From the IMG/VR virus record IMGVR_UViG_3300013372_002174, positions 1 through 29,015 of that record: a DNA stretch of 29,015 nt. One strand, written 5' to 3'. The notes below the pieces were generated by a model that saw only the letters and a program-made list of their open reading frames with translations, was not told the origin of the DNA and did not search any database. The position numbers and the translations under genes were made by a program. Of this stretch, positions 1 to 20,293 are shown in pieces. Numbering within the stretch: the first letter of the stretch is position 1; the number at the start of each line of letters is the position of its first letter. This DNA is from a virus.

Positions 1-229
1 CGCGCTGGGCTGCGTTTAGGTTTTGCTCGAGATTCTTGTCGTCGCTTGCAACCCCGCTGTCCGTCAGCAGAACCACCATCGCACTGGTTGAGCGGAGGGA
101 GCTTAATACCGATTGAACGACAAAGCTTGTATAGACCGCACAGGATGCGGCCATGGATAGTATCACGAATGTTGCCCATAAAAGGTTACTTCGATCGTCT
201 GCGCTTTTTGGTGGTCGGTTTTGGTGCAT
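1..229 (-). CDS. Membrane-anchored small protein, possible i-spanin (3' end beyond window)
   Basis: This is an open frame of 76 codons from ATG at 229-227 to the left edge, with no stop seen, so the protein is partial at its C terminus. The first 15 residues are polar (MHQNRPPKSADDRSN). A strongly hydrophobic segment follows at about residues 16-38 (LLWATFVILSMAASC then AVYTSFVV), then a polar stretch entering a Gln/Asn/Leu-rich region. This is the layout of a signal-anchor protein with its bulk outside the cytoplasm. It starts 44 bases inside the upstream holin-like gene in another frame and has a good Shine-Dalgarno sequence (AAGGA, 8 bases before ATG). A small membrane protein overlapping a holin gene is typical of the i-spanin (Rz-like) position in lysis cassettes, but no sequence family is recognised. 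A lipoprotein reading is less likely because the AASC motif is a poor lipobox and sits late. Existence of the gene is fairly likely; the spanin role is a guess from position. Confidence 0.55.
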   Translation of the reverse strand, partial: MHQNRPPKSADDRSNLLWATFVILSMAASCAVYTSFVVQSVLSSLRSTSAMVVLLTDSGVASDDKNLEQNLNAAQR

Positions 230-533
230 GTTTGATTTCCTTTTCGCCGCGCGCGCGGACGTATTTTATGAGGTACTCCATGATCTCTGGAGCAACTGCG
301 CCGGCGGCGCCTATCGAAGCATAAAGTGCACCCTTACTGGTGATATAATCCTGAGCAAGCAGTCCAACGATGGCTGCGGTTATCATAGCTGCAGCACCAC
401 GTCTGACGATCCACGCCAATGATAGCGGCTCGTCGCTCAAAAGAATTCTGGCGCACATGGCCGCACCTCCGAGAATGCCGGAGATAATTCCGTCTTTAGC
501 CAGTCCGGCCATATCAGGTTCAGCGGCGCTCAT
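186..533 (-). CDS. Holin-like small membrane protein
   Basis: The protein of about 115 residues has three hydrophobic segments at about residues 16-33, 48-66 and 70-92, separated by short charged turns. It ends in a very basic tail (KPTTKKRRRSK). Small size, two or three membrane spans and a cationic cytoplasmic tail are the usual features of phage holins, which permeabilise the inner membrane to end infection. The general pattern resembles LydA/class-III-type holins, though no diagnostic motif decides the family. GTG at 536 and ATG at 533 are adjacent in-frame starts; ATG is chosen as the stronger codon, and neither has a Shine-Dalgarno sequence. The gene begins inside the end of the giant gene (14-base overlap) and is itself overlapped by the next membrane-protein gene. 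This places lysis functions directly after the ejection cassette. It could instead be an unrelated small membrane protein. No endolysin is seen in the window. Confidence 0.65.
   Translation of the reverse strand: MSAAEPDMAGLAKDGIISGILGGAAMCARILLSDEPLSLAWIVRRGAAAMITAAIVGLLAQDYITSKGALYASIGAAGAVAPEIMEYLIKYVRARGEKEIKHAPKPTTKKRRRSK
238..242 (-). promoter_or_regulatory. Shine-Dalgarno site for the embedded left-end gene
   Basis: On the minus strand AAGGA lies 8 bases upstream of the ATG at 229-227, inside the coding region of the holin-like gene. It is the only start in the window with an obvious, well-spaced Shine-Dalgarno sequence, and it supports the ATG at 229 over the later ATG at 179 in another frame. 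Confidence 0.55.
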
Positions 534-3500
534 CACGTTCTAGGGTTGGCATCATTTCACGTCGCTTAAGCAGGAAAGCCAGCCTCTTGACGCCATTGGT
601 ACTGATTGACTCGCCTCCGTTTACATCCGCGCCGGTAATTTGCATGAGAGGTATGCCTTCCATAACCCTACGCCTGAACTGGATTTCTTCTTCCTTGGAG
701 CGAACTAGAGGGCTATGCACAAGCGTAGTGGTGAGGGGGTTGGTCATCCTTATCACATATGCTGCTGATGCAGCCGGGTCTAGGTGGGCCCTCGGGAAGA
801 ATAGCTTCACTAGGCCATCGACATGTGCCTTGTGCTCTATGCCTGCGGCGAGGGTGCCTGATGGATCGGGCCTATACATCAACGGCTGTATGTTCCTGTT
901 CATTGGATTAATGGAATTACCATAGGGCTGAAGTCCGGCGCCCTTGAGCTCAAACTTGTCGGCAACAATCATTGGCGTAGTTGAAGATCCAACTTGGTCT
1001 TGGTTTATCATTCCGCGCTCTATTAAAGCGAGGGTCACAGCCTTGTTTGATTCTCTGCTTGGCGCCATGGCGTCCCCGGCCATTCCAGACGGCATATTTT
1101 CACCGGCGAATTTCTCGTTAAGCTGAGGACCTATTAAACCCCTTTCGATATACTTAGCACGGATGGCTTCCTTGATCCTAGATAGGTCCATGTCACCAAA
1201 CACGCTTTCGTCAGTTCCCGTTGGGAAATGCCCGGCGAATTCTTTCATGATAGACGTAGGAGATATCGTTCCAAAGTCTACGTAAGCTCCAGCCGGTCCA
1301 AATTCCTTAAGGAACGTGCGGACCATCCAGTTGTTGCCCTTGTACTTGGATGACCGCAGATACCTTTCACGGAACGCCTCAAGCTGCCTAGGGCTAGCCT
1401 GAGTCTGGTCTATCTTTTCGATGACTTTGCCACTCGCGTCAGATAGCACCAGCCAGTTGCCATCAACATTGACAGAGGGGCGGTCAAATGAATCTAGCGA
1501 GTAGTTAAGCTTGAAGGCTTCTGTCGATCCGGGAACGGCGAGCTCTAAGGCGTATTGAGGCAGGCCATAGTTAGCTATGTAGCCCCATCCGGCAGAGTTC
1601 GAATTGGCACCAGCTGCCACAAATAGTCCAGCCTCAGAGCCGACTTTGGTGGTTATCTTGTCGGTGTTAGATTTATTGACCACCTTCTTGCCCTCATAAA
1701 CATGCACCCTGTTTGATATAGGGCCGTACAGGTTTATTGGGGCGCCAGTATAGGTGCCGACGCGTCCCCGATAAGCCATCATCCAGTCATCCGGGAAGGC
1801 CTTCTCTGCTTCACGACCAAGGGCCATAAGGGCTATTTTAAAGTGGTCAGCCAGCTTGCCCTCTTGACCTCCGTGGGTGAACACCTTGCCACCAGTAAGC
1901 TCACCAACGTGTTGAGCTACTTCAAGCGTGGCCAGCCTGTGGAAGAATCCAGAGTGAGGCCCTTCTGGCCCGTTGACTGACTTTCCGGTATTCTTTTCCC
2001 AAGCCAAGATGGCTCCACTAACATACATGGTCATATCTTTAGGCATGCCCGCATCCCTGAGTGAGAGCAGGTGGCCTTGTGATCCGCCAATCCTAAGCCA
2101 GCCTGCAGGCGTGGATATGCCTCCGCCGCGCTGAATCTGGTAAGTGGCATCCATGATTCCCATGCCGTGCTGGCCATGGTTCATTGAATCCAGCACATTC
2201 ATTATCAGCTGGCTGGTTTTGTAGGCGCCATCTTCGGCAAACGGCATGACATCAGGGAAGACAGTTATGTCCTCTACTCCATCCGGCATGGATACATGGC
2301 CGCTCTTATTTGGGCTAAAGGTTTCCTTAACCACCTTCCTCATGGCGGCTATCTCGTCGGCCTTCCTGTTGGCGGCTTCCAAGAACTTAGGGCCACCAGA
2401 CATAGCTGAATAGATCTCCACCACGTTTTTAGCAAAGTCGCCGGCCGCGCTTCCATTGTGCCTGTGGTATGGAGCGGTGTATACGTGTATGGCGCTATTG
2501 GCTACGCCCATTTTCTTTAAAGCCATAGCATAAGCCACAAATTGCTCCTTGGTATCAAACGTCCTGAAGGTGACATTACCAGCTGTGCCAAGGCCAAGTT
2601 GGCCGACAGGATTTACCCTTACCCATACCTGACCAAAGTCACCTTTAACTTCTGGGCAATTTGCAAGCGTGTCGCCTACTTCCTGAGGTGTAGTATCAAC
2701 ATCTAATGCGACTATGGTTGCCTTAAACCTGCTAGCTAAGGCGTTCTGGCTTTCATGCAGAACGTTGGAGAAGCTTTTTGCGGCCTCGGAGTGAGGCCTT
2801 GCCTGTGCTGGCCTGCGCTTAAGCTCGTCAAGTATGATCAAGACCGACTTGCCGATGTATGACTTACTGTCCGCGTAATCCTTTCGGATGCGCTCAATAG
2901 TCCTATCAACCAAGCTTTCGTAATCTACGGCGCCGGTTCCATCTATGTGGCCGCCAAGCTCTGTCGCCAGCTTCTCATCCTTGATCATAGACCGGACAAC
3001 GTGAGTGGCAATTAGGTCTCCTATCTTTGAGCTATTGCGCCCAATACTAACCAGCTCGCTTACAAACCTATGCATTTCTCCGGTAGCCCCAGCAGCCTCA
3101 AGCATATCGAGCTCCTTCTTCAGGGCGTCTAGGCCTTGGTTTCGCATAGCCTCTACGCCTCGATTAATAATGGCAGCCGTCATCTCGAGCTGCTTTTTTG
3201 CAATCGAAGCCACGCCATCAATGGTCCGCATGTCTCTGAGCAGTTTTTCTTTCATTTGCTCAGCCCTTGGGTTGCGCATTGATAGGTCCGCATGCTCAGC
3301 GTTCGTTATGTTTTCGATCATGCGCTGCTTCATCTTTTCGTACACAGCATTCTCTACGTTTTCAGGCGAGAAATACGGGTAGCTGCGGATGGTGTCTATA
3401 AGCTCATGATCAAAGTCATAGACGAACACCTCGGTAGGAGATACCTGACCATTAGTCATGCGAGATATGGATTCGCGAATGCGGTCAGGAACCTTTGCCG

Positions 3501-6500
3501 TACGACCAGTCCTCCTTAGTAAGGCCGGGACAGCTTCATGCATCATCGAGCGCTGGAAGATGTCAGTCTGATCTAAGAACAACCTAGAGGACAGGATATC
3601 AAAATCTTTGGTGCCAGTTGATATTCCTCCGGTGCCGGTACCGATAATGGTAGATAGCTGCTCTGCCGCCTTCCTGCTTGAGTCATTGGCAAGAGCTAGG
3701 AGGTCCTTGTATTCCTTATTGAGTTTAGTCAGCTCAGAAGACCTGCCAAAAGCCTCTTGCTCAGCAAGGGTGACGGGAAGGAACATGTCCGGGTCGCTAT
3801 ACGGAACTATCTTATCAACCTTCTGGAATATGTCTGACTGAATTTCCTCGAGCAGCGATATAGGTTCGCGCCTAAACGCGAGTGGCAGGTCTCCATTAGG
3901 ATCAATGCCGGTAAGCGTAGCAAAGCCGTCTATGCCCAAGGCTGAGGTCATCATGCCCCATCCAGTCCTTGAGTGGCCAAGCTCATAGGCTCCGCCACCA
4001 CCAGACATCGACGAGCTGCCGGGCATAGCCTTTTCAAAGTGCGTCCCGTGGTTCCTATTGTCGTCATGTGCCATCCTCTTGCTAGTTGCGAGCCTGACCG
4101 CAGCCACCCGCTGTATAGTCTGTTGCAGGGCGATCTCGGAGGTGTACTTTTGCTTTTCAGCGTCAAGCTCTGGGCCCGGGGTCATCCTGCTTATCTTTTC
4201 CTTACGAGCCTTTAGGTTGTCGCGAACCTCTTTGAGGTAAGCGGTTATGTCGGACAAGCCATCTTTGTCTGCGTACCTGACGATTGCTTGGTGGTGCGCC
4301 TGATAAGGCGAAGCTATGTAAGTGGTGTACGGGAAGCTTCCGTAATAATGCATGGACTGACCTAACGAGTCTTCCATGTCAGAGCCCCATCCAAACCCGA
4401 TGGCCTTGCCAGCTTCCAGAGTTGTAGCTAGCGCATTGGTTGGCCTCGTTGCCGCGTGGGGCATGTTAGGGCTTACTAAGGACGAGATGTATGGCCCTAT
4501 TTCATCAGCTACAGGACCAAGTATAGCCCTAATTGCAGCGTCGGAGGCGAGCGCCTTGATCCTGTCATTAACCGCATGACGCGATTGCTCGAGCTGCCTG
4601 AAGTCGTACGAAGCAAACGGCTCCCCTTCCTTGGCCACTATTTCCGCAAGCTTGCCATGAATAGTGTCAGACAGAGAGACTGAATCTATCCTGTCAGCCC
4701 GGAAGACTCCGATCTTCTCTGCGAACGACCTGAGATGCCCTTCAATAAAGCCAACCATTTCAACCAGCTTGGCCTTAGTTGCCTCATCGGCTCCCTCACT
4801 AGAAACCTTTTCGTACAGCGTGGTTAATTCCAGACGCTTAGATAGCAGCGCATCGACGGCCATCAACTGGTTCGCCCTGCTCTGAAGCCTTGAGTCGTGT
4901 ATGAATGGAGGTACGAAGGTGTTATTGCCAAGGGGCTTGACGCTCTCCTCTGGGTTGAACCCAAGCGCTGAAGCCTGTTGTGCAGCATGCATTAGGTACA
5001 TGGCCGGCTCCGACCTGCGCATGGTCGGATATACTGCGGCCATAAATTCAGCCATGTCCTGCCTGCTAAACTTGGCGGCCGGGTTGTTTGCAAGCAGGTG
5101 CCCAAGGCCAGTCTGCCTTATCTCGGCCTTTGATACGCCATTCTTGGTCAGCAGGCTGAACCATTCCGTACCATTGAGGTACTGGAAGTCCCTATTGTTG
5201 CCCGGCAGGCCACGGATGATGGCGTTCATCGCCCTTGATCCAAAGTTCATAACGCCTTGAGGCAGGCCGAAGTTCACCTTCTGCCTTACCATGTCTTCGA
5301 GCTCAGGGATTGAGCTGCCAGTAATCTGCTCAAGCTTTACAGCAGGAGTGTCAAACTCTAGATGGAAATTACGGCCCAAAGCTTTTCCGACCTGTCGAGC
5401 TTGCTGGACGTCCATAGCCACATCCAAATCACCCACGCGGTACTTGCCTGTTCCCTCTAGCTCGCCCGAGAAACCAACAGACGGCTGCAGTCGCTCAATC
5501 TCTCTGACCTTAGCTTCCGCGAAGAACTTGCTTCCCTTACCTTCGTCTGGCCTCTCAACGACCCTGAAATCTCCGCCGGCAAGCGATCTAAGCACAGATG
5601 CCTCAGTCATACTTGACGCTAGCTTATTTGAGAAAGCAATTGCCTGCGCCTCAGTTTTAAAAGCGATAGCCTTTTTCCCGATTTGCAATCCTCCCTCAAG
5701 CCCAAATGAGCTTGGGTGATTCATTTCCACAATGTATGCGCGGAAATTATCATCCTTCATGAAGTTGGTGCGCTTCCATATTTTAATACCATGAGCAGCC
5801 TTGGCGTCCCACGAATGGGCTAGCAGGTCTTTTCTGCCCGGGAACATCTGGGATATTGCTAGACCAGTGTCTCCGTTCATTGAAAGAGTCCTTTCAGTGT
5901 CCGGCAGGAAGTAGCCACTTTCTCCGCTTATTATTTTGTGCGCGGCAAGATATACGTCATCCATCAAGTGCGGATCAACTGACAAGCCCATCTGCACATT
6001 GTCCTCAAGTCCGGCCAATATGCCTTTAGTGTAGGCTCCAGACTGACGGCTTGGGACTATGCCAAAGTCACCATCCATCTGGCTCATGGTGAATATGCCT
6101 CGGGCTTTCGCATCTCCCTTAAATATTTCTTCGTGTCCAACGTTAAGCCTATGCTTTCTCTCCCTAGTAGCCGACTCAACGAAGGCGCCACCAAGGGTTG
6201 GCTCAACATGCATAGCCATAAGTATAGCGGCTAGGTTTTCAGTTGTAGTTCCGGCCGGAAGAATGAATGACGTGTACGAGCTTGGCCCATTTATGTCATT
6301 CATGGTGGCAGCGTGGAAAGCCCTGCGCTCAATTGGGATACGCGTGTCCAATAGGAAGGCCTTAAATTGATCCCTTTCCATCGCCCCTAGGTTGTGCCCG
6401 GGTATTCCTTCTAGCACTGGCTGCATCGGGTCTATTTTCCCGCGAGTGTGGTGCATGCCTCGAATATCGCGCACAGCGCTGTCGATTATAGCCTGCATCA

Positions 6501-9500
6501 TCATCGGGTCCTTTTGCGAGAAAGCGGAAGCAAGTGGGTGCTTCATCATGCCAAGGAAGTCAGAGGTCGTAGCCTGAGACTGCATGTTGCCCGGTATCAG
6601 CAGCCCTGAGTTCGGGTCATATCCAACGCCTTCGGAAAGGCTGAATCCATAACCAGCCCTTACAGCACCCCTGACCTGATAGTCTTGCTTATAGCCAAGA
6701 TGGTCGCCGGTAAGGTTGATCATGATACGCCCATCAGGAAGGCGCTTCCATGCGTAGCCCTTCTTGGGAGCAAACTCTCCAGCCCTGTGGGGGTCTGATA
6801 TGTAGCCAGTTCCGTAATTAGAAGCAGGAGGGGGCTGAGTGAATCCCCTGAGCCTAGACGCCTCCATGGTGAGCATGGTAGGCTGTTTCTTTTTATCGTT
6901 TCCGTATGCTTGGAATGTGGTCTTGCTGATAGACCTCATTCCCCTGCCGTGGAATTGAGCAGAGGCCTCCAGTACGCCCTCCGCAGAGTTAAAACCGCCA
7001 ATCTGGGATACGCCTAGTCCGCCGTAAGAAAGCTGCTGGCCGGCTGGAGCTATCTCAATGGTCTTAGCTCCATCCTTTTGGGCTCGTCCGATAATTGACT
7101 CCTGAACGAATCCGCGAATCACGCTAGCAGGGATCGCGCTTCGTCCTTGGTTGCCGAACTGTATCTGTACGTTGCCAGACTCCATCACAGGCTCCCTCTC
7201 GATTAGATCAATAGGGTCCTCGGACATGAACATGGCTCCAACCGCGCCAAGGCCACCATCGTAAGGCTTGGCCCGGAGAGGCTCATAATTAGTTCGCATG
7301 TATCTGCCCGGCTCCAAGTCGTCAGCTCCTACACCCTCGTAAGCTGCGTCATCGGCCCACCTTCTAGCTTCTCGAACATCCGGCTCTAAGATCGAAGTAT
7401 CCATTCTCATAGGCTCAATGCTGCTATGATCCGTGAGCCTAAAGACGCCACGCATGCTTCCTCCATGAAGGGAGGAGTCTATCACAAACCCCTTCGTGTC
7501 GTTATCTGAGTGCGGAAGCGTATATTTACCGGTAGTCGCGTTTCGGGAAATTATTGGAGTAGCTCCATCAATTTCTGATAGACCTTTAAGGGCCTTGACC
7601 ATGACTTCTTGGTACGCGCTAGCATCGATCCAGTTGTTAGTGGTAGCTAATGCCTTCTTGAGGGAAAGGGGACTAAGCCTGTCTTTAGCTGCTGCCCAGT
7701 TAAGGTCATAATCACCCCTTCCTCCAAGAAGGGTATTTGTGTCCGGGTTAATGCCAAGCACGTCATGTATGAACGTGTTCGCATCCATGCGGTCAATTAC
7801 GTCCCTTTTAGCTATAGTACCGACGGCGGCTTCTATGGCGAGCAACTCAGCCTTATTGAAGTTTACCCCAGTCTTGCGAAGCGACCTGATGGTTCGCTGC
7901 GTCTCAGCTAGTCCGGTTAGCGTGGCAAACTGCTTTATGGCATCAATGCTCATGCTGTTAAGCATGCTTCCCTGCGACATCCGAACCATGGATTGGAAGT
8001 CGTAATTGTCAGACTCCGTAGCCACTCCACCTATCACCTTGGCTAGAACTTCCATGGACATGGGTGAAGACATGTCGCCAAATGAGTTCATGAACGGCCT
8101 GCGCATGTGCGCTACGCTCATGACTGCCATCGCTGCACTCATCGAGGAGATTAAGGACAACTTTTGGGAGTCACTTACTTCGGGCGCTTTTTCCGCAACG
8201 TGCCAATGGTACCTAGATTTGTCTGCCTTAAGCCACATCCTCAGCTTCTTTGAGAGGGCCGTGTTCCTTGGCAGGTGGGTTGCTTCTAGTAGCTGCGCGG
8301 CAGCAAGCAAAGGGATGGTGCCATCTAACGTGTGGGCTATGTTGCGGATAAATCCGTTCTTATAGTACTCCTTATGGATTAACGTCGGGAGCGAGTCCTT
8401 GCTATCAAATGATCTGCTTACAACGTACCTAATCAATCCGGGGTCGGTGACAACCTCTCTATCGACAGAGAAGCGAGTTCCGGCTTCGGCTGCAAAGTCT
8501 CCAAGTATCCTAGCGATACGAGGTATGCGCATTTGCAGCATCTTTTGCTCATAATCGGCGCTGGTGTAATCAAGGTTTACTACACGCTCGGCGCCCTCGT
8601 CGTCCGCTTCTCGTACAAACTCAGCGAGCAAGTTGTGTCCGGTTGCGCTAGTCCTCGCCACCACCCTAAGGGGCTCTGAGGCTATGGCCTTTTGCTTTTT
8701 ACTGGCGGTGGTGCTTGTGAGCCCATTGAGAAGGCTAGCCGTGTGCGGCTCCATCGTAGAGCCGAGTGCCTCATACGCGGAGGTGACGACCAAAGCTCCC
8801 TCCCTAGTGTAGTGCCGTACCAAGGCCGCCTGAGACTGAGGCTTATAGCCTCCCGCGTCACGTCGGTCTGTGGCCGGGATAGAATCCCAGCTTCCTTGAT
8901 CGATGCCCGTAACATTACCAAGGCCGATATTGTATGCCTGCTGGTCGATGGTTTCTGCCATGCGCAAGAAGCCAAGAGCCTTGGCCGATTGCTCGCCTAT
9001 GTTTGGCTCGGTTAGGATTCTTAGCGTATCAGGGTTGGCTAGCATTAGCTCCCGCATAGAAGCGCCCCTGATCCTGCTGCTGCCGGCCAAAATTTGGATG
9101 CGCCTATCAAGCCCTTCTTCTCCGTCCATGGAGCTGATGTACTTAAGCAGGTCATTGGCCCTGATTATCAATGCGCGCTGCGCAAATTGGGCATGCCTAA
9201 TGTAGGCTGGCACCTCAGAGTCATAATCCGCGTTGGGGATTTTTGACTCATACAAGGACGTACTCAGGGAGGCTTCTGCTTTATTCATGCCACCTTCCGC
9301 CGACCTTAAACCTATCGCTATCTGTTCGTCTCCGTTAGTAATGTTGACTGTGTCAGGCACATCTGAGCTGGGCCCAAAGGTTATGCTCCTGTGCATATTC
9401 CTCAAAACCTTGTCGGGCTTGTAAGCAGTGTCGCTTAATGCCGGTACTGCCGGATGGACGCTGGTGCCAGCCATTACCGACTGTAGTCCATAGGCCCTAG

Positions 9501-12500: not shown

Positions 12501-15500
12501 GGTTCGGGTAGAAAGCATACAGCTCAGGGTGGGTTATGATATCACCAAGCGTGTAGCCCTTCGAATTGAAGCTGCGGTAGAACTCGTCATACAGGCTGGC
12601 GTCAACCGGGACTGCAGAGTCAGACACAAGCGTATCCAGCGTCTGGTCTATGAGCTTATTCAGCTTATCATCCGCATTATAGATGCCTGCGGTAAGCATT
12701 CCATCAAGCCGGCCGCCAAACTTCTGCAAGCTAAGCTCGGCCTTCCTATCTGAAATCTCAAAGTAATCGTAGCTGTTGCCGAAGTGATCTACCATCCTAC
12801 CAATAAGGCCCAGCTTTTCCATCTCGCGCTTCCTAATGTCGTCGAGCTTGGCTATAGCTTGGCTGCCGGTAAGCATCATCAGCTTGGATGACTGGACAGA
12901 GTCTATCTTCTTTGAGCCATAGCCTACACCCATAATGCTGCCTTGGCCATCCACAGGACCATCAAGCGTCCTGACGGCCATCCTGAAGTCGCCATCAACG
13001 TCGGCGACGCTGCCGGTCCTTATGAACTGCCTAAGCATGTCCACGTACCTAGAGCCGGCACCGGGAGCCTTGGCGGTATCAACACCAAGCTTCTCGAGTA
13101 GCCTGTTGGCGCTTCCGTTAGACGGGAATGAATCAGAGTCTAGACTATGCTTAAAGTAGTTCTCCTGAGCCGCGAGGTACTGGCCTATCCTAAGGACGCC
13201 AGCCATGTGGGAGTTATGATCTGAGGATACTGTGTCGGCGTAGCCAGCTACCACCTGCTCCACGAACATCATATTATCTCCGTACACACCGGCTTCCTTG
13301 AGCATGGAGGATATCTCTCCAGACCTGATCTCTCCTCCGTTTATCATATCTTCCTCAACCTTCCTCATGATACCCATGGCCTGAGCTAGCGACATGTGGG
13401 CGAGAAGCGTTTCCTTGGTAGCCTCCTTGGCGTCAGGCATCATGGCCATTAGCTTAGCTGGGCCATCTTTGCTTGCGAAGAACTGCAAGGCCATGGGAGG
13501 CATGATACCATCCCAAGCGTTGCCGCCCGGTATGATAGAACCAGCGCCCCGCTTAAGGCTGCTTGGGTCTATAGTGCTCATAGCCTTACCGCTAGTGTTA
13601 GACATGAACGCCCTAACCTCAGTTGAGGTGCCGACGATATGCGACACGTCAGCGATGCTTATTGCATGACTGCTAGATCCTTTTGGCTGTGCAGCTATCA
13701 TGGCAGGTATGCCACTAGAGCCGACGTGCATGCCTCGCTCCTCGGCTATCCTTAGAGCCCTGCCCGGAGGCTGCCTGTTCACATTAACAGGAACATAGGC
13801 AATGTTACGCTTCTTCGCCTGCCCGTTAATGGAAGTCGAAGTAACCACTTCTCCAATACTCGGAGGCAGGGTATAGAAATCCATGCCCTGATGATGGCCT
13901 CCATTAAATAGTCCGCTCTTAGCCCTGATTTCACTCATGCCCGGCTTCATACCCCTATCGTCAAGCGTCCTCATCTCATGGAAGATAAGGCTAGAGTCAT
14001 TGGTGACCCTCATGATCAAAGACAAAACGCGGATGTAATCCCTCTGGTGGTCGGCCAAGGACTCGCGGTCACCCTTGCCAATCTCCTTGGTGATCTCGCG
14101 CAGCGCGGTGAACAAATTGGTCATGGACACCACTGTCTGGACGTCCGGATTGGAAAAATCAGCTATGACAGCAGACGTGATAAAGCCCTTCTTAGCCCCA
14201 GACTCCTGCCTAAGCTTGCCCTGCTTGTCAAAGAAGCCAGCTACCGACTTCTGGAACATGCCACCGCCGGCCGCCAGTCGCTTTACTGCAGCGCTGTAGT
14301 CAGAGATAAGCTGCTTGGCTATGCCTTCTCGCATTGGTTTATTGGCATTGGCGTACTCGACATCGTCTACGCCAGTCGGCCTGTGTTTCTCCGCTTGGAA
14401 CAGGTAGCTTTCGATGGCTCCCTGTATGTCCCTGATCCCGGTGTTAGATGAATGGAACTCTAGGAACTCCCCAGCGCGGCCACCTGCCTGCATGAGGGCG
14501 TTCATAATGCGAGGACGCATCTTGGGGTCAGGAGTTAGGGCCGACACATCCAGATACACGGGAGGCATGCCTCCGAGCTTATCGCCGTAAGCTTGCCGCG
14601 CGGCTGATTTTATCGCTGCTCCTATTGCCATGCCTTCAATGTCAGGCAGCGAAGCCATAGACTCATCGACCTCGATGGCGTTAAGCGCAGCTTGCCAGTG
14701 ATCTGGCACACTGATGACGCCCTTGGTAAACGTAGACGGGTTGAATGAAGACGTTGATTGGCCGCGCTGCTTAGACCTATTGGTCTTGGTGGGGTCGCCT
14801 GCTTCAAAGAACGACCAATCTATGTCGGCACCTAATTGGGCCATGCCCTCTCCGTGCTTAGCTAGCAGCTTAGATATGTTTTCATCCCTAGTATCTCTGT
14901 CCCCGCCGGCCGCTTCGGCCATAAGCTCTCCCATCCTCCTGTAACTCTGGATTGCGGATGCCGTCATAGCCGTAGGAAGGTTTACCTTACCGGCCTTATG
15001 GAGGGCGTTGTACTTGACCGCTATGGCCATACGACGCGCAAGCTGATCAGACAGTAGCTCCTTGTCGGTGTTGTACAGATGCCTAAACCAAGACCTATCA
15101 ACACGCAGTAGCTCATTCTGGAATGTGCCAACCACTTCCGTACCCCTAGCTACGCCGGTGTCTTCATCTGCAAAAGCTATCTGGGTGTCCCTCATGGACA
15201 CGTCATACTTCTTGCCATCAACCTCGATGGTGGTGTTAAAGTCTCCGGCAGCTTCCCCGAGTATTTCTACCAGCGGGACAAACTTCTTGGAGAAAGAGCT
15301 CTCAACGTCACCAAGAGGATTGGAGTACCTTGCGCCGGAATCCTTGGATGCGTACTCAAACAAGTGATCAACCGCGCTCTTGCCGCCATGGTTAGATTCC
15401 TTGACGCGCTTAACCAGACCGGAGAGCTGATACCTAACGTGAATATTTAGCGACTCAGTCGTGGACTCTAGCTTAGCTAGTGCGTCGTCGTGGGGGCTTG

Positions 15501-18500
15501 ACACGTTAATCATGTCATCAGACGAAGGCTGCAGGTCGGCTTCGTTAATGTGAGCTGCTTCAGCTCCAGCTCGCTTCATGGCGGCCTTGGCCGTCTTGAA
15601 TACGCTTATCTTGATGCCGAACGGATCATAGAGGGCGAAGCCAGTCTTGGTCTCATAGACCTCGAACCCGTTGTTATCCTTGAGGTACTTCTTGCCATTA
15701 CCGATATCACGCTCGGTGAATCCGGTGATCTGGAAGTTGCGAGCTATGCCATCATATCCCTGAACGTGGACGAATGGGAAGGGCTGCACCTTGCTGTGCA
15801 CGTTCCAAGATGTCGGGTGAATCTTAACGTCCGCGAGCGTATCGAAACGCATCGTGTAGAAAGGCCTGTTGGGGTCATCCGCTCCACCGATGTATCCATC
15901 CTGAGGGGTATTGATGAAGGCGTCATCCTTGCGCTTACGGCCGCCAAAGGCTTCGTACATTATATCCCTAACGCGCTCAGCCCTGTCGCCGTACTCAGCC
16001 CTGAATAGATCAGCGCTCGGAACCTTAGCTCCATTGAGGCCAGACTGGTTGGATACGTACAGGTTGAACCTGTCTACGAACTCGGAGAAGTTGCCATTGA
16101 ACATACTCCTGACATCAGCCCGCTTAAAGGTCTTCATCAGCCTGCGGTTCACGGCAGCAACGTCGACGGAGTGGATCAGGATGCCGCCCTTGGCCGCGCG
16201 CAGAGGGTTGCCCTCCGAGTCGTGCGTCTTGAGGGTTACCTCAACCGAGTAAGGCATGAAGGTCCTGTAAGTAACAGGGACATCAGAGCCAGTAAGCCTG
16301 AACACGCCGCCGGCCTTGCGAACCTGCTTGCTGTGCGCGAGTAGGGTTCCGGTCATGACATTGAACGTCACGTCGCCCATGCGGTTCTTTTCAGCTATCT
16401 TTACTATCGCGGAAAGCTCGTTGAACTCCTGAGGCGTCAGGGCTCCAGAGGACTGGATGGCAGCCATCGTCTCGGCGTTAGCGGTCTCAAGCCTGAGCTT
16501 AACTGAGCCATCAGGCATAGACTCGATGACGGGCCTGACGTCTTCGCTTACGCCCTGCATGGCGCTGAGTATCTTGTTGGCCTGAATCTGGGAGGCCTCG
16601 TCGAGCTCCGAAGGAGACTTGAGCCTCATGCCGCCAGTAGGCAGCGACTTAAATAGGTGCACCTTGCCGTGCTCCTTTGCGAAAGCTTCCTGACGCATTG
16701 GATCAAGGGTTGATACCAGAACCTCAGACCTAGCGTACGCCTGCTTGAGTACGGACTCGACCCATGAGTCCATGCCCGGAGTCCTGACAACGACGCCGTC
16801 GTCAAACATGTAAGTCTCGATAGCCGGGTTGCCATTGTCGTCTAGCATCCTAGGGCTGCCGTCAGCGTTGGTGAACTTGGCCTTAATCTCTACGCCAGCT
16901 TCTTCGAGTGAGGAGAGTATGCGGCTGTTCTTCCTAGCTGCCCTGTTCTCGGCCCATGACCTGAGCAAGTTGCGCGCGGCCGGGTCCTTGACGTACTTGT
17001 CTACCGGGAAAACATTAGAGGTGCCAGAAGCGTAGTAGGCAAAAGCTTCCTCGGCCATATTAGTGGCCATCTGGAAGTCGCCTACCACCTCCATCTTCTG
17101 CATGTCCACTCCCCTACTGAGGTGGCCACGCATACGGCTAAGCAGTCCGCCGTAAAAACCCTTGGCGTTTTCACTTATCCTTTTGATCATCTCTGGATCG
17201 CTTGGCTTGCCGTTAGCATTCCAATCCCTAGCGGCTCCATAGCTGGTCATAAGGGATTCCCACGCGGCATCAGGCATGACTCCCATGTCCTTTGAGGTCC
17301 CGAATATGCGGCTAGCGTAGGCCGGATTAAAGACGTCACCCATGTATCGGCCGGTTTCCTTATCGATCACAGAATCCATCTCGGCGTTCGCTTCCACCAC
17401 GGACCTAAAGAGGGCGTGGGAGATTTCGTGGCGGCCGGTGGTAGGCTTATACAGGTCTGAGTTGATGGCTATCAGCCTCTTAACTGTGCCGTCATTCAAG
17501 GTTACCTTCTCGAACATGCCGGCCGCAGACCCCATAGCCCTGAACGACTCCATGAGCTTATCATAGTCGCTACCCTTAACATTGGACTCAGCTAGGATGT
17601 TGCTGAACTCCTGATCACTTTTGCCAAAGAAGAACATGACATTCCCTTCTCCGACAAGGCTGGCTTCGTGCGCAACCAGCGTTGATATGTGCGAGAGCTC
17701 TATGGAGCTAGTCCTTAGGTCTCCGAAAGAATTGACATGGTTATAGAACCGCTTGGCCATCTCCATGCTAGTTGGTCCGGCTATGCGGCCAAACGCCGGC
17801 ACCACGTAGTCCCTGAAATTATCAACAACCCTAGAGTCCTGAGGAGTGTAGTAGCTGTACGAGTGAAGGTGCCTTATAGTTCCCGAGAGACCTCCCCACG
17901 CTGTACCCATTGCAAGGCCGGCGCCAGTGCCCTCACTCGGAGAGTTCGCATAGCCAAGCGCTGCACCGAACATGCCATCACGGAATGCAGTCTTTAGCGC
18001 GGCGCCAGATAGAGACGGAGCCCATCCAACAGTAGCGTTGATACCCTTCGCAAGCATTTGAGCCTCGCGAGACATGGCGTCTGCGCCCTTAGCTGTGCCG
18101 GCTGCAAGACGTTCAAGCGTGGTGGCGCCAAGCGAGTCGGCCCTGACCATAGTCTTGCCAAGGGCCCTATCAACCATGTCAGCTCCAGCCACCTGCATGA
18201 CTTCACCTAAAGCTTCAGCTCCGAAGCTACGCATGAATCCCATTGCAGGATGCACGGCAGTAGATCCAAGTAGTGTGGCGCCAGCTTCGACTATTTCAGC
18301 TGTAGCCATGTTGCGAACGGCGTTGCCGGCGTAGTCTCCAGCCATCTGTGTGGCAGCCTGACTGGTTCCGTATATTGCCTTAAAGGGTGCCTTAACCGCG
18401 CTTCCGGTAGCTTCGAGCGCACCGCCAGCTACACGCTGACCGAAGGCCTGATATCGGCTAGTGGTTGCCTGAATCCATGAGTCGGCCATCTTTGCAGACT

Positions 18501-19308
18501 TGGCAACTCGAGCAGCCTTCATGCCACCCATAGCCGCAATCCTTGCAGCCGTTGCTGGCGTTGACGCACCCATGGTAAATATCCATTCCGGGAGATCGTA
18601 GGCTATGTAAGATAGGCCAATGGCACCCTTCTGGTTCACCTTCGAGCTAAAGGATTCCTGCCAAGACTTTGCAAGAAGCGGGGCTAAGACTGAATTCTCA
18701 TCATACGTCGCATCACTAAAGTCTCGCGCGGTATTAAACTGGCGCATCTGCGAGTCGATGTCTCCATCATCCTTGCCTACTAGTGCTGAAGCCCAGCTCC
18801 TGAACTTAAACAAGGGGCTACTTGGGTCTTGGGACTCCCAAAGCACTCCATACAGATCCCTAGCGCCTCTGAATAAGCCTTCTGCGGTAGTTGCTCCGAA
18901 TGCTGCCGGGTCGCTAAACGGGCTTGGAAAGTTTGCGACACCTTCGCCAATTTCTTCGACCATCTGACGTGCAGCCGGCTCCATCGTTCCAACCAAGTCG
19001 ATGGTCTTGTCGGCCATGTACTGCTTGTACTTCTTAAACGCAGCCCTGCCGCCATCATCAAATGAAAACTTAAACCCCTTGCCCTCTGGTGACCTGAGGA
19101 AATCTCCGTAGTCCTTACCGGTCCACTCCCTGCTCCTTAGCTCCTTTACCTGTGGGTCTTGCTCCTCCTCGGGGGTGGATTGATCCGAAAAATCAGGGAG
19201 GGCCTGCCTTGCGACGGGAACTCCCTGCCTTGCGAGAAGGTCTCGCGTCTTCTGAATGTCTAGTCCGTCTGAGTTTACTTCTTCTTCGTTACCTTGGGGC
19301 GAGTCCAT
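520..19308 (-). CDS. Giant 6262-residue polyvalent-type phage protein, probably virion-packaged and ejected
   Basis: This is a single uninterrupted reading frame of 6262 codons, about 0.67 MDa by residue count. The N-terminal 480 residues are Ala/Gly/Met-rich with amphipathic or hydrophobic stretches (about 229-262 and 440-480) that might contact a membrane. A HEISH metallopeptidase-like site is at 627-631, with a Glu-rich EEAFA motif at 753. A MPTase-PolyVal-like domain spans about 2253-2640. A segment beginning NGTEWF (4712) and an EEIQSD motif (5154-5159) match a paired module of polyvalent proteins. No polymerase, lysozyme or nuclease motif was recognised elsewhere. Multi-thousand-residue proteins of this mosaic type are known from some podoviruses (Bcep22-like phages, from memory) and are thought to be injected with the DNA to counter the host. 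Here that role is inferred from its position directly after the internal virion genes. The ATG at 19308 overlaps the upstream gene by 20 bases and has no Shine-Dalgarno sequence. Arginine is encoded mostly by AGG near the start, unlike the fibre gene. Confidence 0.8.
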   Translation of the reverse strand: MDSPQGNEEEVNSDGLDIQKTRDLLARQGVPVARQALPDFSDQSTPEEEQDPQVKELRSREWTGKDYGDFLRSPEGKGFKFSFDDGGRAAFKKYKQYMADKTIDLVGTMEPAARQMVEEIGEGVANFPSPFSDPAAFGATTAEGLFRGARDLYGVLWESQDPSSPLFKFRSWASALVGKDDGDIDSQMRQFNTARDFSDATYDENSVLAPLLAKSWQESFSSKVNQKGAIGLSYIAYDLPEWIFTMGASTPATAARIAAMGGMKAARVAKSAKMADSWIQATTSRYQAFGQRVAGGALEATGSAVKAPFKAIYGTSQAATQMAGDYAGNAVRNMATAEIVEAGATLLGSTAVHPAMGFMRSFGAEALGEVMQVAGADMVDRALGKTMVRADSLGATTLERLAAGTAKGADAMSREAQMLAKGINATVGWAPSLSGAALKTAFRDGMFGAALGYANSPSEGTGAGLAMGTAWGGLSGTIRHLHSYSYYTPQDSRVVDNFRDYVVPAFGRIAGPTSMEMAKRFYNHVNSFGDLRTSSIELSHISTLVAHEASLVGEGNVMFFFGKSDQEFSNILAESNVKGSDYDKLMESFRAMGSAAGMFEKVTLNDGTVKRLIAINSDLYKPTTGRHEISHALFRSVVEANAEMDSVIDKETGRYMGDVFNPAYASRIFGTSKDMGVMPDAAWESLMTSYGAARDWNANGKPSDPEMIKRISENAKGFYGGLLSRMRGHLSRGVDMQKMEVVGDFQMATNMAEEAFAYYASGTSNVFPVDKYVKDPAARNLLRSWAENRAARKNSRILSSLEEAGVEIKAKFTNADGSPRMLDDNGNPAIETYMFDDGVVVRTPGMDSWVESVLKQAYARSEVLVSTLDPMRQEAFAKEHGKVHLFKSLPTGGMRLKSPSELDEASQIQANKILSAMQGVSEDVRPVIESMPDGSVKLRLETANAETMAAIQSSGALTPQEFNELSAIVKIAEKNRMGDVTFNVMTGTLLAHSKQVRKAGGVFRLTGSDVPVTYRTFMPYSVEVTLKTHDSEGNPLRAAKGGILIHSVDVAAVNRRLMKTFKRADVRSMFNGNFSEFVDRFNLYVSNQSGLNGAKVPSADLFRAEYGDRAERVRDIMYEAFGGRKRKDDAFINTPQDGYIGGADDPNRPFYTMRFDTLADVKIHPTSWNVHSKVQPFPFVHVQGYDGIARNFQITGFTERDIGNGKKYLKDNNGFEVYETKTGFALYDPFGIKISVFKTAKAAMKRAGAEAAHINEADLQPSSDDMINVSSPHDDALAKLESTTESLNIHVRYQLSGLVKRVKESNHGGKSAVDHLFEYASKDSGARYSNPLGDVESSFSKKFVPLVEILGEAAGDFNTTIEVDGKKYDVSMRDTQIAFADEDTGVARGTEVVGTFQNELLRVDRSWFRHLYNTDKELLSDQLARRMAIAVKYNALHKAGKVNLPTAMTASAIQSYRRMGELMAEAAGGDRDTRDENISKLLAKHGEGMAQLGADIDWSFFEAGDPTKTNRSKQRGQSTSSFNPSTFTKGVISVPDHWQAALNAIEVDESMASLPDIEGMAIGAAIKSAARQAYGDKLGGMPPVYLDVSALTPDPKMRPRIMNALMQAGGRAGEFLEFHSSNTGIRDIQGAIESYLFQAEKHRPTGVDDVEYANANKPMREGIAKQLISDYSAAVKRLAAGGGMFQKSVAGFFDKQGKLRQESGAKKGFITSAVIADFSNPDVQTVVSMTNLFTALREITKEIGKGDRESLADHQRDYIRVLSLIMRVTNDSSLIFHEMRTLDDRGMKPGMSEIRAKSGLFNGGHHQGMDFYTLPPSIGEVVTSTSINGQAKKRNIAYVPVNVNRQPPGRALRIAEERGMHVGSSGIPAMIAAQPKGSSSHAISIADVSHIVGTSTEVRAFMSNTSGKAMSTIDPSSLKRGAGSIIPGGNAWDGIMPPMALQFFASKDGPAKLMAMMPDAKEATKETLLAHMSLAQAMGIMRKVEEDMINGGEIRSGEISSMLKEAGVYGDNMMFVEQVVAGYADTVSSDHNSHMAGVLRIGQYLAAQENYFKHSLDSDSFPSNGSANRLLEKLGVDTAKAPGAGSRYVDMLRQFIRTGSVADVDGDFRMAVRTLDGPVDGQGSIMGVGYGSKKIDSVQSSKLMMLTGSQAIAKLDDIRKREMEKLGLIGRMVDHFGNSYDYFEISDRKAELSLQKFGGRLDGMLTAGIYNADDKLNKLIDQTLDTLVSDSAVPVDASLYDEFYRSFNSKGYTLGDIITHPELYAFYPNLEHTRFELTPNGSTCEASYSPLENVFRISPQAMLVSALGDRLRKRTGGVDIDYQSFMGHDANVEYVRGLLLHEIQHAIQEAEKFYHAGHIYIASDVANFATSGSGYPDRMALAAGAYAASVPNLPILLGGPEPMGILDSPEKQLAPGTGLDEHIVAVMRTYHRNSAKLVSHVRDASGKLEIIQPDDATATKEIQKILNAPVAHALISEFIPRTIAYYTSSRLKAESTMIKVLAGLNDGVMIADAVSYFENIIKTAERNIEEAKLLAQSIKGGDFVAAQRAAVSVSLSKADFDRISVGSRWPASVNALQSYDPTLIRMSSEVSLGASLTVGSIIDEADAIKAPWGFKAANTYMRLLQGVYYGTDPDEIMSNVTADRSRMSESELAASPRKVAENTYERLARLASNNGENLGQNASRIFRNPPKLNMIGGSVGAEKMNVSPFGESANNLFAGGMRMLARASLLGHYVHKANAELMHLGKLMYTSRGWHIGDDGLPVYISETGFLEGSPLLGQFGGDVRNLAANQEQVIRAKHDESAARRNLTEEQRTDLFGNAKDADSEDVIKFGKLLVDKSFIPTQMYQSGDMGFLGGISRDGGKTVTISDIAAAMGAKHVIEEHIGMSSRALNAIYKAEIPEVVESHKIVETFRAAGLSYEDINVAHLDHIEKNFKGVKFTRGELADMIAMIHDVPLLDVSGRGNTIPAIMRDIMSGVDSAEQFRKLYRAAMNPDAPNYYAPCMRAFINESLSGGNSNSDRAIPLRSLLKVDSTTEAGAGRFFLMEAIVETIQFNWNANEYIQRFVGGQAGKDLAKRIANALADRFPEHTDRGGYTDRDDVARMNIRVETSIDAMGQARRGNSSDFITPASAYYRFASRLERLLVELTPFAEKLAQKMEKSIRDTGEVIAGSSHTQRFQEMLAAFYSEALTAGLKDVVVSRVGEDGQKRIELSSREFQMMSQGKRSFYDGVTVNETLVRRGIGSPFMSEGSSGSVLHGLVGGASEAFAASARAYGLQSVMAGTSVHPAVPALSDTAYKPDKVLRNMHRSITFGPSSDVPDTVNITNGDEQIAIGLRSAEGGMNKAEASLSTSLYESKIPNADYDSEVPAYIRHAQFAQRALIIRANDLLKYISSMDGEEGLDRRIQILAGSSRIRGASMRELMLANPDTLRILTEPNIGEQSAKALGFLRMAETIDQQAYNIGLGNVTGIDQGSWDSIPATDRRDAGGYKPQSQAALVRHYTREGALVVTSAYEALGSTMEPHTASLLNGLTSTTASKKQKAIASEPLRVVARTSATGHNLLAEFVREADDEGAERVVNLDYTSADYEQKMLQMRIPRIARILGDFAAEAGTRFSVDREVVTDPGLIRYVVSRSFDSKDSLPTLIHKEYYKNGFIRNIAHTLDGTIPLLAAAQLLEATHLPRNTALSKKLRMWLKADKSRYHWHVAEKAPEVSDSQKLSLISSMSAAMAVMSVAHMRRPFMNSFGDMSSPMSMEVLAKVIGGVATESDNYDFQSMVRMSQGSMLNSMSIDAIKQFATLTGLAETQRTIRSLRKTGVNFNKAELLAIEAAVGTIAKRDVIDRMDANTFIHDVLGINPDTNTLLGGRGDYDLNWAAAKDRLSPLSLKKALATTNNWIDASAYQEVMVKALKGLSEIDGATPIISRNATTGKYTLPHSDNDTKGFVIDSSLHGGSMRGVFRLTDHSSIEPMRMDTSILEPDVREARRWADDAAYEGVGADDLEPGRYMRTNYEPLRAKPYDGGLGAVGAMFMSEDPIDLIEREPVMESGNVQIQFGNQGRSAIPASVIRGFVQESIIGRAQKDGAKTIEIAPAGQQLSYGGLGVSQIGGFNSAEGVLEASAQFHGRGMRSISKTTFQAYGNDKKKQPTMLTMEASRLRGFTQPPPASNYGTGYISDPHRAGEFAPKKGYAWKRLPDGRIMINLTGDHLGYKQDYQVRGAVRAGYGFSLSEGVGYDPNSGLLIPGNMQSQATTSDFLGMMKHPLASAFSQKDPMMMQAIIDSAVRDIRGMHHTRGKIDPMQPVLEGIPGHNLGAMERDQFKAFLLDTRIPIERRAFHAATMNDINGPSSYTSFILPAGTTTENLAAILMAMHVEPTLGGAFVESATRERKHRLNVGHEEIFKGDAKARGIFTMSQMDGDFGIVPSRQSGAYTKGILAGLEDNVQMGLSVDPHLMDDVYLAAHKIISGESGYFLPDTERTLSMNGDTGLAISQMFPGRKDLLAHSWDAKAAHGIKIWKRTNFMKDDNFRAYIVEMNHPSSFGLEGGLQIGKKAIAFKTEAQAIAFSNKLASSMTEASVLRSLAGGDFRVVERPDEGKGSKFFAEAKVREIERLQPSVGFSGELEGTGKYRVGDLDVAMDVQQARQVGKALGRNFHLEFDTPAVKLEQITGSSIPELEDMVRQKVNFGLPQGVMNFGSRAMNAIIRGLPGNNRDFQYLNGTEWFSLLTKNGVSKAEIRQTGLGHLLANNPAAKFSRQDMAEFMAAVYPTMRRSEPAMYLMHAAQQASALGFNPEESVKPLGNNTFVPPFIHDSRLQSRANQLMAVDALLSKRLELTTLYEKVSSEGADEATKAKLVEMVGFIEGHLRSFAEKIGVFRADRIDSVSLSDTIHGKLAEIVAKEGEPFASYDFRQLEQSRHAVNDRIKALASDAAIRAILGPVADEIGPYISSLVSPNMPHAATRPTNALATTLEAGKAIGFGWGSDMEDSLGQSMHYYGSFPYTTYIASPYQAHHQAIVRYADKDGLSDITAYLKEVRDNLKARKEKISRMTPGPELDAEKQKYTSEIALQQTIQRVAAVRLATSKRMAHDDNRNHGTHFEKAMPGSSSMSGGGGAYELGHSRTGWGMMTSALGIDGFATLTGIDPNGDLPLAFRREPISLLEEIQSDIFQKVDKIVPYSDPDMFLPVTLAEQEAFGRSSELTKLNKEYKDLLALANDSSRKAAEQLSTIIGTGTGGISTGTKDFDILSSRLFLDQTDIFQRSMMHEAVPALLRRTGRTAKVPDRIRESISRMTNGQVSPTEVFVYDFDHELIDTIRSYPYFSPENVENAVYEKMKQRMIENITNAEHADLSMRNPRAEQMKEKLLRDMRTIDGVASIAKKQLEMTAAIINRGVEAMRNQGLDALKKELDMLEAAGATGEMHRFVSELVSIGRNSSKIGDLIATHVVRSMIKDEKLATELGGHIDGTGAVDYESLVDRTIERIRKDYADSKSYIGKSVLIILDELKRRPAQARPHSEAAKSFSNVLHESQNALASRFKATIVALDVDTTPQEVGDTLANCPEVKGDFGQVWVRVNPVGQLGLGTAGNVTFRTFDTKEQFVAYAMALKKMGVANSAIHVYTAPYHRHNGSAAGDFAKNVVEIYSAMSGGPKFLEAANRKADEIAAMRKVVKETFSPNKSGHVSMPDGVEDITVFPDVMPFAEDGAYKTSQLIMNVLDSMNHGQHGMGIMDATYQIQRGGGISTPAGWLRIGGSQGHLLSLRDAGMPKDMTMYVSGAILAWEKNTGKSVNGPEGPHSGFFHRLATLEVAQHVGELTGGKVFTHGGQEGKLADHFKIALMALGREAEKAFPDDWMMAYRGRVGTYTGAPINLYGPISNRVHVYEGKKVVNKSNTDKITTKVGSEAGLFVAAGANSNSAGWGYIANYGLPQYALELAVPGSTEAFKLNYSLDSFDRPSVNVDGNWLVLSDASGKVIEKIDQTQASPRQLEAFRERYLRSSKYKGNNWMVRTFLKEFGPAGAYVDFGTISPTSIMKEFAGHFPTGTDESVFGDMDLSRIKEAIRAKYIERGLIGPQLNEKFAGENMPSGMAGDAMAPSRESNKAVTLALIERGMINQDQVGSSTTPMIVADKFELKGAGLQPYGNSINPMNRNIQPLMYRPDPSGTLAAGIEHKAHVDGLVKLFFPRAHLDPAASAAYVIRMTNPLTTTLVHSPLVRSKEEEIQFRRRVMEGIPLMQITGADVNGGESISTNGVKRLAFLLKRREMMPTLERDERR
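3829..5175 (-). other. Polyvalent-protein 'EEIQSD' module with long helical insertion (residues 4712-5160)
   Basis: Two segments that normally sit close together in phage polyvalent proteins are both present. One is NGTEWFSLLTKNGVSKAEIR followed by QTGLGHLL and a basic helix (4712-4763), matching the W..L.K.GV...E.....GL...L pattern. The other contains GHSRTGW (about 5109-5115) and SLLEEIQSDIF, where EEIQSD is 5154-5159, matching the vl-x-IEEIQSDWHQ pattern with IF in place of the usual WH. Between them lie several hundred residues that are mostly charged and helical, including a probable coiled coil at about 4810-4870. A HYYGSFPYTTYIASPY segment at about 4985-5000 may correspond to the usual HW...PN..AH region. 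The biochemical role of this module is not established. Confidence 0.55.
11374..12552 (-). other. MPTase-PolyVal-like domain in the giant protein (about residues 2253-2645)
   Basis: The segment carries the successive hallmarks of the metallopeptidase domain of phage polyvalent proteins. LGDIITHPELYAFYP (His2260 in HPELY) is followed by a strand region with ASYSPLENVFRI, then LLLHEIQHAIQEAEKF with HEIQH at 2341-2345. Much later comes YYGTDPDEIMSN with Glu2635, followed by ADRSRMSE, which matches the usual tail of the domain (Y...P-x-E-x-x-A/S followed by R..MS). In typical members the last acidic ligand follows the HExxH by well under 100 residues, as I recall the family. Here it is 290 residues away, implying a large insertion. 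The family match is fairly confident; activity and substrate are unknown. Confidence 0.7.
17050..17430 (-). other. Metallopeptidase-like site 1 in the giant protein (residues 627-753)
   Basis: Residues 624-633 read TGRHEISHAL, a HExxH zinc-binding signature followed by AL as in many gluzincin-type peptidases. About 120 residues downstream a TNMAEEAFAYYASG segment supplies Glu753/Glu754, a plausible third ligand because Glu followed by a small helix (E-x-x-A) is common in this class. The segments in between are predicted helical by composition. The motif and spacing are seen directly; proteolytic activity is inferred. Possible targets are the giant protein itself or host proteins. A structural prediction placing H627, H631 and E753 or E754 around one site would settle it. 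Confidence 0.5.
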
Positions 19309-20293
19309 CTGGTATATTATTGGTAGATTGCTGGCCTGTGGGGGAGCCAGCTGTAGCCTCAGGTTTATCCTTAAGCTTCTCTAGCACAAGCCCATTCATA
19401 TAGGCAGTGCGAATCAATATTCCACGAAGTTGCTCTCTGGTCTTGTTCAGCTTTACGAGGCCATCGCCGACAGGCTTCAGTAGGTCAATGCTTGCCCTTG
19501 GTAGGGTTGCTTGAATTTGATCCATTTCTACATCCGACACTCCAGCCATACTAACCGATCCGCTCTTTAGGCTAGTCACAACAGTAACAAGCCCCTTCTC
19601 CAGCTGCTCGAGCTGCGATCGGGTGTCGTTAAAGAGAGGACTACCCGGAAGGCTTTTCCAGCCGGGTTTATTGTACAGGTCTTCGATTTGGTCTAGTATG
19701 ACCATGACCTCGCTAGTCTTGGCTGCATTCCTTCGCCAAACTACGGCAGCTTCATCTCCGCTTAGGAATGGAACCGCGCTGACTCCATTGCGGTATATGT
19801 AGTCGCTCATGCTGGTTCGCTTACGCTTACCATCTACACCCATCTCCTCTATGTCGCCGGCTGGCTTAATGCCATAGCTGCCACCCCTGCCCATCTCAAT
19901 GATCTGTCCGTGGGTAAAAATAGATGGGCCGCGCGTCTTTGCTAGCGTTCGGGCCGCACCTATATTGCCCGTAGATGCATATACCTGCTGGGCTATGTAG
20001 GCTGGGTCCATCTGCTTCTCCATTAACTTGGCTTGGTCTGCGGCAGCCTTGGCTTGAAGGGCCTGATCCTTGCCGACGGCAGCTCGGTACGCCGTAGCTT
20101 CGCGCGGGAAGTTCGGGTTCATGAGTTCAGCTGGGTCCTTGCCCATAGCTCTAATTACCTGAGCATCAGACATTTGCGCAGGCGCGTAGCCCTGAGGAGA
20201 CCTATCGGCCGTGTCAGAGTCGTAGTTATCTAGCTGAGACCTAACGGCAGCCGCGAGGACGTCCGGGTCGATATCCTCTGGGTCGTTGATCAT
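19289..20293 (-). CDS. Probable internal virion (ejection) protein, 334 residues
   Basis: The protein is soluble-looking and largely helical, with no enzymatic motif. Residues 65-100 are Ala/Gln/Lys-rich. The C-terminal half (about 185-310) is a run of amphipathic helices containing GSVSMAGVSDVEMDQIQ (245-261). It resembles a helical segment, with a small-residue turn followed by S-D-x-E, found in various phage DNA-transfer or internal virion proteins; this likeness is weak and from pattern memory. The start ATG at 20291-20293 shares a base with the upstream TGA (TGATG), and the end overlaps the giant gene by 20 bases. It is therefore probably co-translated with both neighbours. Position directly before the giant gene suggests that the two act together in ejection or packaging. 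The function call comes from context rather than homology. Confidence 0.6.
   Translation of the reverse strand: MINDPEDIDPDVLAAAVRSQLDNYDSDTADRSPQGYAPAQMSDAQVIRAMGKDPAELMNPNFPREATAYRAAVGKDQALQAKAAADQAKLMEKQMDPAYIAQQVYASTGNIGAARTLAKTRGPSIFTHGQIIEMGRGGSYGIKPAGDIEEMGVDGKRKRTSMSDYIYRNGVSAVPFLSGDEAAVVWRRNAAKTSEVMVILDQIEDLYNKPGWKSLPGSPLFNDTRSQLEQLEKGLVTVVTSLKSGSVSMAGVSDVEMDQIQATLPRASIDLLKPVGDGLVKLNKTREQLRGILIRTAYMNGLVLEKLKDKPEATAGSPTGQQSTNNIPDGLAPR

Follow-up and report, generated by a model that had tools for sequence, protein, structure and literature searches.

The 29,015-bp window analyzed here, which is the entire IMG/VR virus record IMGVR_UViG_3300013372_002174, carries on its minus strand a single frame of 6262 codons whose product, which we call the giant, is probably an internal virion protein ejected by an uncultured clade of podoviruses with genomes of ~47–50 kb. 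As the window is the complete record, it represents a fragment of a phage genome, and the phage origin proposed in a preliminary description of the sequence is supported. New here are the extreme size of the protein and the fraction of the genome devoted to it, its two zincin domains, and an exchangeable internal cassette. The giant would be packaged in the virion, would enter the host and may be cleaved and act there as payload; that it is delivered together with the DNA is suggested by the position of its gene and by analogy to gp60 of Pseudomonas phage H66. The genes discussed below are as follows.

186..536, minus strand: 116-aa holin-like membrane protein with two hydrophobic segments
520..19308, minus strand: giant open reading frame, ATG start, 6262 aa, stop-free
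19289..20293, minus strand: 334-aa protein in ejection-type position, conserved in the clade
20293..21567, minus strand: 424-aa protein in ejection-type position, fast diverging
21596..22759, minus strand: 387-aa protein in ejection-type position
22753..23706, minus strand: 317-aa protein in ejection-type position
23706..24521, minus strand: 271-aa protein, conserved in the clade
24521..25888, minus strand: 455-aa head-closure (Hc3)-like protein (PHROG 578, E 5e-4)
27934..29007, minus strand: collagen-like tail-fibre protein (PHROG 5073, E 3e-20); the record ends just past this gene

The length of the giant frame is not due to chance: at the window composition, 6262 consecutive sense codons have an expected log10 probability of −108.6, and 100 shuffles contained stop-free runs of at most 242 codons. 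The product has a computed mass of 682.9 kDa and a pI of 6.3, so that the giant scale given in the preliminary description holds, with its 0.67 MDa adjusted to 0.68 MDa. Scans of IMG/VR returned relatives in many contigs, from different metagenomes and across a wide divergence, and every relative with room for the gene carries an unbroken homologue of 5.3–6.5 thousand residues, except for one (G016, IMGVR_UViG_3300010388_000278), in which the giant is encoded as two chains of 2371 and 3293 aa. Five independent assemblies contain unbroken homologues of 6259, 6323, 6453, 6459, and 6286 aa, with whole-protein identities to the window of 94, 48, 31, 30, and 51%, respectively (the frame of the last was closed across contig ends through a 123-bp in-frame overlap), and further contigs contain homologues of 5.3–6.4 thousand aa. 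Between the window and the nearest copy, dN/dS is 0.117 overall and 0.03–0.35 in every full 250-codon block, and 1060 of 1489 substitutions fall at third positions, which confirms that the gene is under purifying selection along its length. Unusual length is what would recommend an assembly chimera or frame error that joins ordinary genes; this reading is refuted by the unbroken homologues in independent assemblies and the selection seen in each block, and the single uninterrupted frame that had been described is real.

Outside the metagenomic records, no isolate of the clade was found in the phage collection, and no relative of the giant in plasmids or in bacterial genome contigs, and there is therefore neither a provirus nor a host assignment for the clade. 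We found no published description of the clade in the literature on giant phage proteins, of which our coverage was partial, and the portions available to us of the reports on S. meliloti phage AP-20-A and phage PhiGT1 describe no comparable giant.

Many full-size relatives have exact end overlaps, mostly of 87–127 bp, that yield closed genomes of ~47.4–49.9 kb, and the giant gene occupies 35–40% of these (33–37% of contigs that lack an end overlap). The gene order in the relative G002 runs from Erf, exonuclease VIII, a PDDEXK nuclease, and RusA through TerL, portal, scaffold, and major head protein to a collagen-like fibre, Hc3, small structural genes, the giant, and the holin-like gene. Phage C75C1 encodes similar versions of TerL, the head protein, and Hc3, with the 455-aa protein of the window matching the C75C1 head closure protein in tblastn (E 2e-7), and for TerL and the head protein the similarity extends to LUZ24-type podoviruses. 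The giant is thus encoded in the morphogenesis operon, downstream of head, neck, and ejection-type genes and upstream of a holin-like gene (the G002 homologue of the 116-aa protein is 99% identical and matches PHROG 6384 holin, E 6e-4), and this gene order bears out its reported placement directly after internal virion proteins. The giant ATG lies 20 nt within the upstream 334-aa gene and has no obvious Shine-Dalgarno sequence, an arrangement that matches what would be expected for translational coupling.

The giant itself can be divided into the following regions. Conservation peaks at aa 300–1290 and is weaker at aa 4000–4790, 5080–5180, 5600–5760, and 5890–6010.

17839..18561, minus strand: aa 250–490, Ala/Gly-rich all-helical N-terminal region, conserved, low-confidence model
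16999..17841, minus strand: aa 490–770, zincin-like domain Z1, H627-E628-x-x-H631 with distal E754
15439..16911, minus strand: aa 800–1290, most conserved core, without a PDB match
12874..15411, minus strand: aa ~1300–2145, exchangeable cassette, 597–930 aa in relatives
11329..12981, minus strand: aa 2110–2660, zincin Z2, H2341/H2345/E2635
4939..7311, minus strand: aa 4000–4790, C-terminal block defined by conservation
3529..4071, minus strand: aa 5080–5260, invariant GHxR ... EExQSD block (alignment A7)
1219..2541, minus strand: aa 5590–6030, C-terminal conserved block, fairly confident model, no fold match

The two protease-like sites noted earlier are HExxH motifs at aa 627–631 and 2341–2345, both of which are conserved along with a distal glutamate. 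In Z1, the HExxH motif and E754 are kept across relatives (alignments A2 and A6), and an AlphaFold model of the domain (pLDDT mostly 70–89) has three strands, the helix with the HExxH motif, and, later in the chain, a helix that bears the Glu. This topology matches the plan laid out for zincin-like metallopeptidases, in which a three-stranded sheet is combined with an HExxH helix and a helix that carries the distal Glu (Iyer et al. 2017, PMC5512222). An hhalign comparison of Z1 with the zincin of the N4 virion RNA polymerase (vRNAP) places the two HExxH motifs in register at a weak, not significant level (P 9%, E 0.0036), a resemblance to that domain and no more. Z2, in which H2260, the HExQH motif at 2341–2345, E2635, T2641, and R2644 are invariant (alignment A8), matches H66 gp60 both in tblastn (E 1e-4) and in hhalign (P 97.5%, E 8e-12), and by this sequence comparison it is homologous to the H66 gp60 zincin. 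Z1 and Z2 apparently belong to different zincin subfamilies, and no further domain was recognized in the giant.

Pfam (E up to 5) and PHROG (E up to 1) scans of the window giant returned nothing above the cut-off, and candidate matches to PBECR1 (0.12) and Methyltransf_10 (0.21) were rejected as weak. The same family scans of the giants of eight relatives gave no convincing match, only HTH-like and other weak matches in single members; in one or two relatives, an HTH/sigma-region-4-like match within the giant reaches E ~1e-4 (members of alignment A9). A polyvalent-domain search, which the preliminary description had proposed, accordingly found no convincing Pfam polyvalent domain in the window or in the eight relatives, and a search of the record for LPD30 was negative, as were its controls, so that this search carries no information. 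PDB profile searches with eight blocks of the giant found no convincing relative. The structure predictions suggested at the same time were made for two tiles, and neither AlphaFold model, of aa 250–1290 (pLDDT 61) or of aa 4990–6040 (pLDDT 76), has a significant Foldseek match; the top match of the former is a lethal-factor zincin (E 0.29, insignificant). Apart from Z2, no tile of the giant matches H66 gp60, N4 gp50, or the large proteins of C75C1, the N-terminus has no sequence match to known ejection proteins, and no payload enzyme other than the zincins was recognized. For the GHxR ... EExQSD block, a tblastn search of phages up to E 10 returned nothing. We take this block (GHxR...EExQSDxxQ) to be reminiscent of a motif in polyvalent proteins. 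The protein had been described as a mosaic of polyvalent segments; recombination within the gene in relatives favors the mosaic part of that statement, but the polyvalent part is not supported as stated, given that no Pfam polyvalent domain or PHROG family scores convincingly. Z2 is the one segment demonstrably common to a known polyvalent-type protein, and it is the zincins that carry the comparison.

Two patterns of divergence point to recombination inside the gene. Between ~23,600 and ~17,000, a stretch that comprises the upstream ejection-type genes and aa 1–~750 of the giant, the DNA of the window and of G002 is mostly 50–80% identical, compared to mostly 85–99% in the surroundings, and dS is 0.8–1.26 in giant codons 1–750 and 0.1–0.4 further on. 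That the ejection-type genes and the giant N-terminus diverge as one block suggests that their products work together. The second pattern concerns aa ~1300–2145, between the conserved core and Z2, where identity drops to about 15–70% per 50-residue bin, with sharp borders that the pairs have in common, in several pairs of close relatives (G010/G023, G015/G017, G012/G013, and G005/G006). In the three closest pairs, the adjacent Z2 is mostly 84–100% identical. Third-position differences, determined for three pairs, amount to 0.61–0.67 within the divergent segment versus 0.06–0.21 downstream; this saturation favors recombinational replacement over selection alone. In G015/G017 the N-terminal side is diverged throughout, and the sharp border is confined to the downstream side. 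Alleles of the segment are homologous within clades and merely 23–55% identical in close pairs, and none contains a known domain in a Pfam scan. A profile of the segment matched the TPR-like repeats of kinesin light chain over ~70 residues (E 3.5e-5), which we took as helical-repeat similarity and not as homology. By these sequence comparisons, aa ~1300–2145 behaves as a cassette swapped between relatives, which is new here, and it is probably the part of the protein under host-driven diversification. The exchangeable segment indicates where host-specific function may reside.

We propose that the giant would be expressed late, from the last large gene in the head–neck–ejection operon, and that a few copies would be packed inside the head. 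Most likely, the N-terminal ~1290 residues (the helical region, Z1, and the core) would associate with the ejection proteins encoded upstream and bring about delivery of the chain, and the remainder would consist of payload domains with a function inside the host upon entry. Z1 and Z2 would most likely process the giant chain or cleave host proteins, both of which have been discussed for zincins (PMC5512222), and aa ~1300–2145 would be a payload or specificity cassette exchanged by recombination among relatives. Packaging is supported by the operon slot, by H66 gp60, by the precedent of N4, and by cargo capacity: known cargo loads are ~2.5 MDa in P22 and ~5.5 MDa in crAss001 (PMC10172136), and a few copies of a 0.68-MDa chain fit within them. 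Several observations count against this reading: the N-terminus has no sequence match to known ejection proteins, no payload enzyme besides the zincins was recognized, a Kyte-Doolittle scan predicts no transmembrane segment in the giant, and the two chains of G016 imply that the protein may not need to be a single chain. A more elaborate form of the proposal, which we regard as rather speculative, is a delivered polyprotein in which a constant N-terminal module for delivery and proteolysis is followed by a recombining cassette of ~600–930 residues and then by a second protease, which would release the cassette inside the host; if this were true, these viruses would adapt a single injected giant by exchanging its middle part.

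A possible but less probable account is that the giant is a virion-packaged, self-cleaving polyprotein whose zincins cut the chain before or at packaging, so that the virion or host would receive several individual proteins. The two conserved zincins are consistent with this account, as is P1 DdrB, which is processed ahead of packaging (PMC5512222), and G016 offers a naturally divided version: its split (L067:8150-8290) lies just past the third ligand of Z2 and involves a one-base shift, reading frames that overlap in ATGA, and the SD-like sequence GAAGAGG. This split is, however, either a true gene fission or a one-base assembly error, no cut site was identified, and N4 vRNAP is packaged uncut together with its zincin (PMC5512222). 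Moreover, the single frame is otherwise kept, whereas freely separable parts would often be encoded as separate genes.

Two further readings give the giant a different function within the particle. It is improbable that it is an elongated structural protein of the tape-measure or fibre type that is retained in the particle and not delivered: its length, its place among structural genes, and its long helical N-terminus would suit such a role, but the gene has no tandem repeats, the head, terminase, and neck genes are like those of podoviruses (LUZ24-like phages and C75C1), which lack a long tail, and the protein has two conserved zincins and an internally exchanged segment. It is very improbable that the giant is a virion RNA polymerase of the N4 type, or some other enzyme required for early transcription, that has diverged beyond recognition. 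The slot is comparable to that of virion polymerases, the HExxH motifs of Z1 and of the N4 vRNAP zincin line up, and no phage RNA polymerase was recognized among the scanned G002 genes; against this, neither the window nor its relatives convincingly match a polymerase model in Pfam or PHROG, no tile has a profile match to N4 gp50, and the Z1 alignment has a probability of 9% only.

Among known systems, the ejected internal virion protein that we favor can be compared to H66 gp60, a 3787-aa 'PLxRFG domain-containing protein' of a Hollowayvirus that is annotated as a virion protein verified by mass spectrometry. Its gene is preceded by Hc3 and further genes and followed by a holin, a slot comparable to that of the giant, and the two share the HE(I/L)QH zincin of Z2, beyond which no similarity is detectable. 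H66 gp60 has 60% of the giant's length and contains LPD23, LPD3, a methyltransferase-like domain, and PLxRFG, none of which was found in the giant; with the motif and LPD domains absent, the giant is not a PLxRFG/H66-type protein. N4 gp50 vRNAP, a giant podovirus protein of 3500 aa with one HExxH zincin and a gene beside structural genes, is packaged and ejected (PMC5512222), but it contains a polymerase module that was not found here. Polyvalent proteins are likewise very large and phage-encoded, with zincin peptidase domains and a predicted early-delivery slot, and the giant is ~3 times the >2000-aa size stated for them (Iyer et al. 2017, PMC5512222), although it contains no second recognized catalytic or LPD domain. 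The giant would work like the ejected and polyvalent giants, yet it cannot be placed among the N4-type vRNAPs, as no polymerase was recognized in it. The nearest named phage by TerL (33%), C75C1 (OQ984151), which is similar in head protein and Hc3 too, has after its Hc3 and tail-fibre genes a gene for a 2769-aa protein that is less than half the giant's length, has no HExxH, and has no detected sequence similarity to it.

Calculated from lengths, the share of a ~49-kb genome spent on one protein (~38% for the giant) is extreme next to the 15% of N4 gp50, the 17% of H66 gp60, and the 21% of the C75C1 protein. A chain of 0.6–0.7 MDa that is kept clade-wide and would need to pass through a short tail probes how far protein ejection can go. 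With its two zincins, the giant also allows a direct test of whether ejected proteins of this kind process themselves.

Two minor observations concern other parts of these genomes. The early region of G002 contains genes for proteins of 538 aa (L015:917-2533) and 369 aa (L015:3026-4135) that have no PHROG or Pfam match. Within the collagen-like tail-fibre gene of the window, a 99-bp tandem repeat is present in 2.5–2.8 copies (28263–28553) and is likely a site of length variation.
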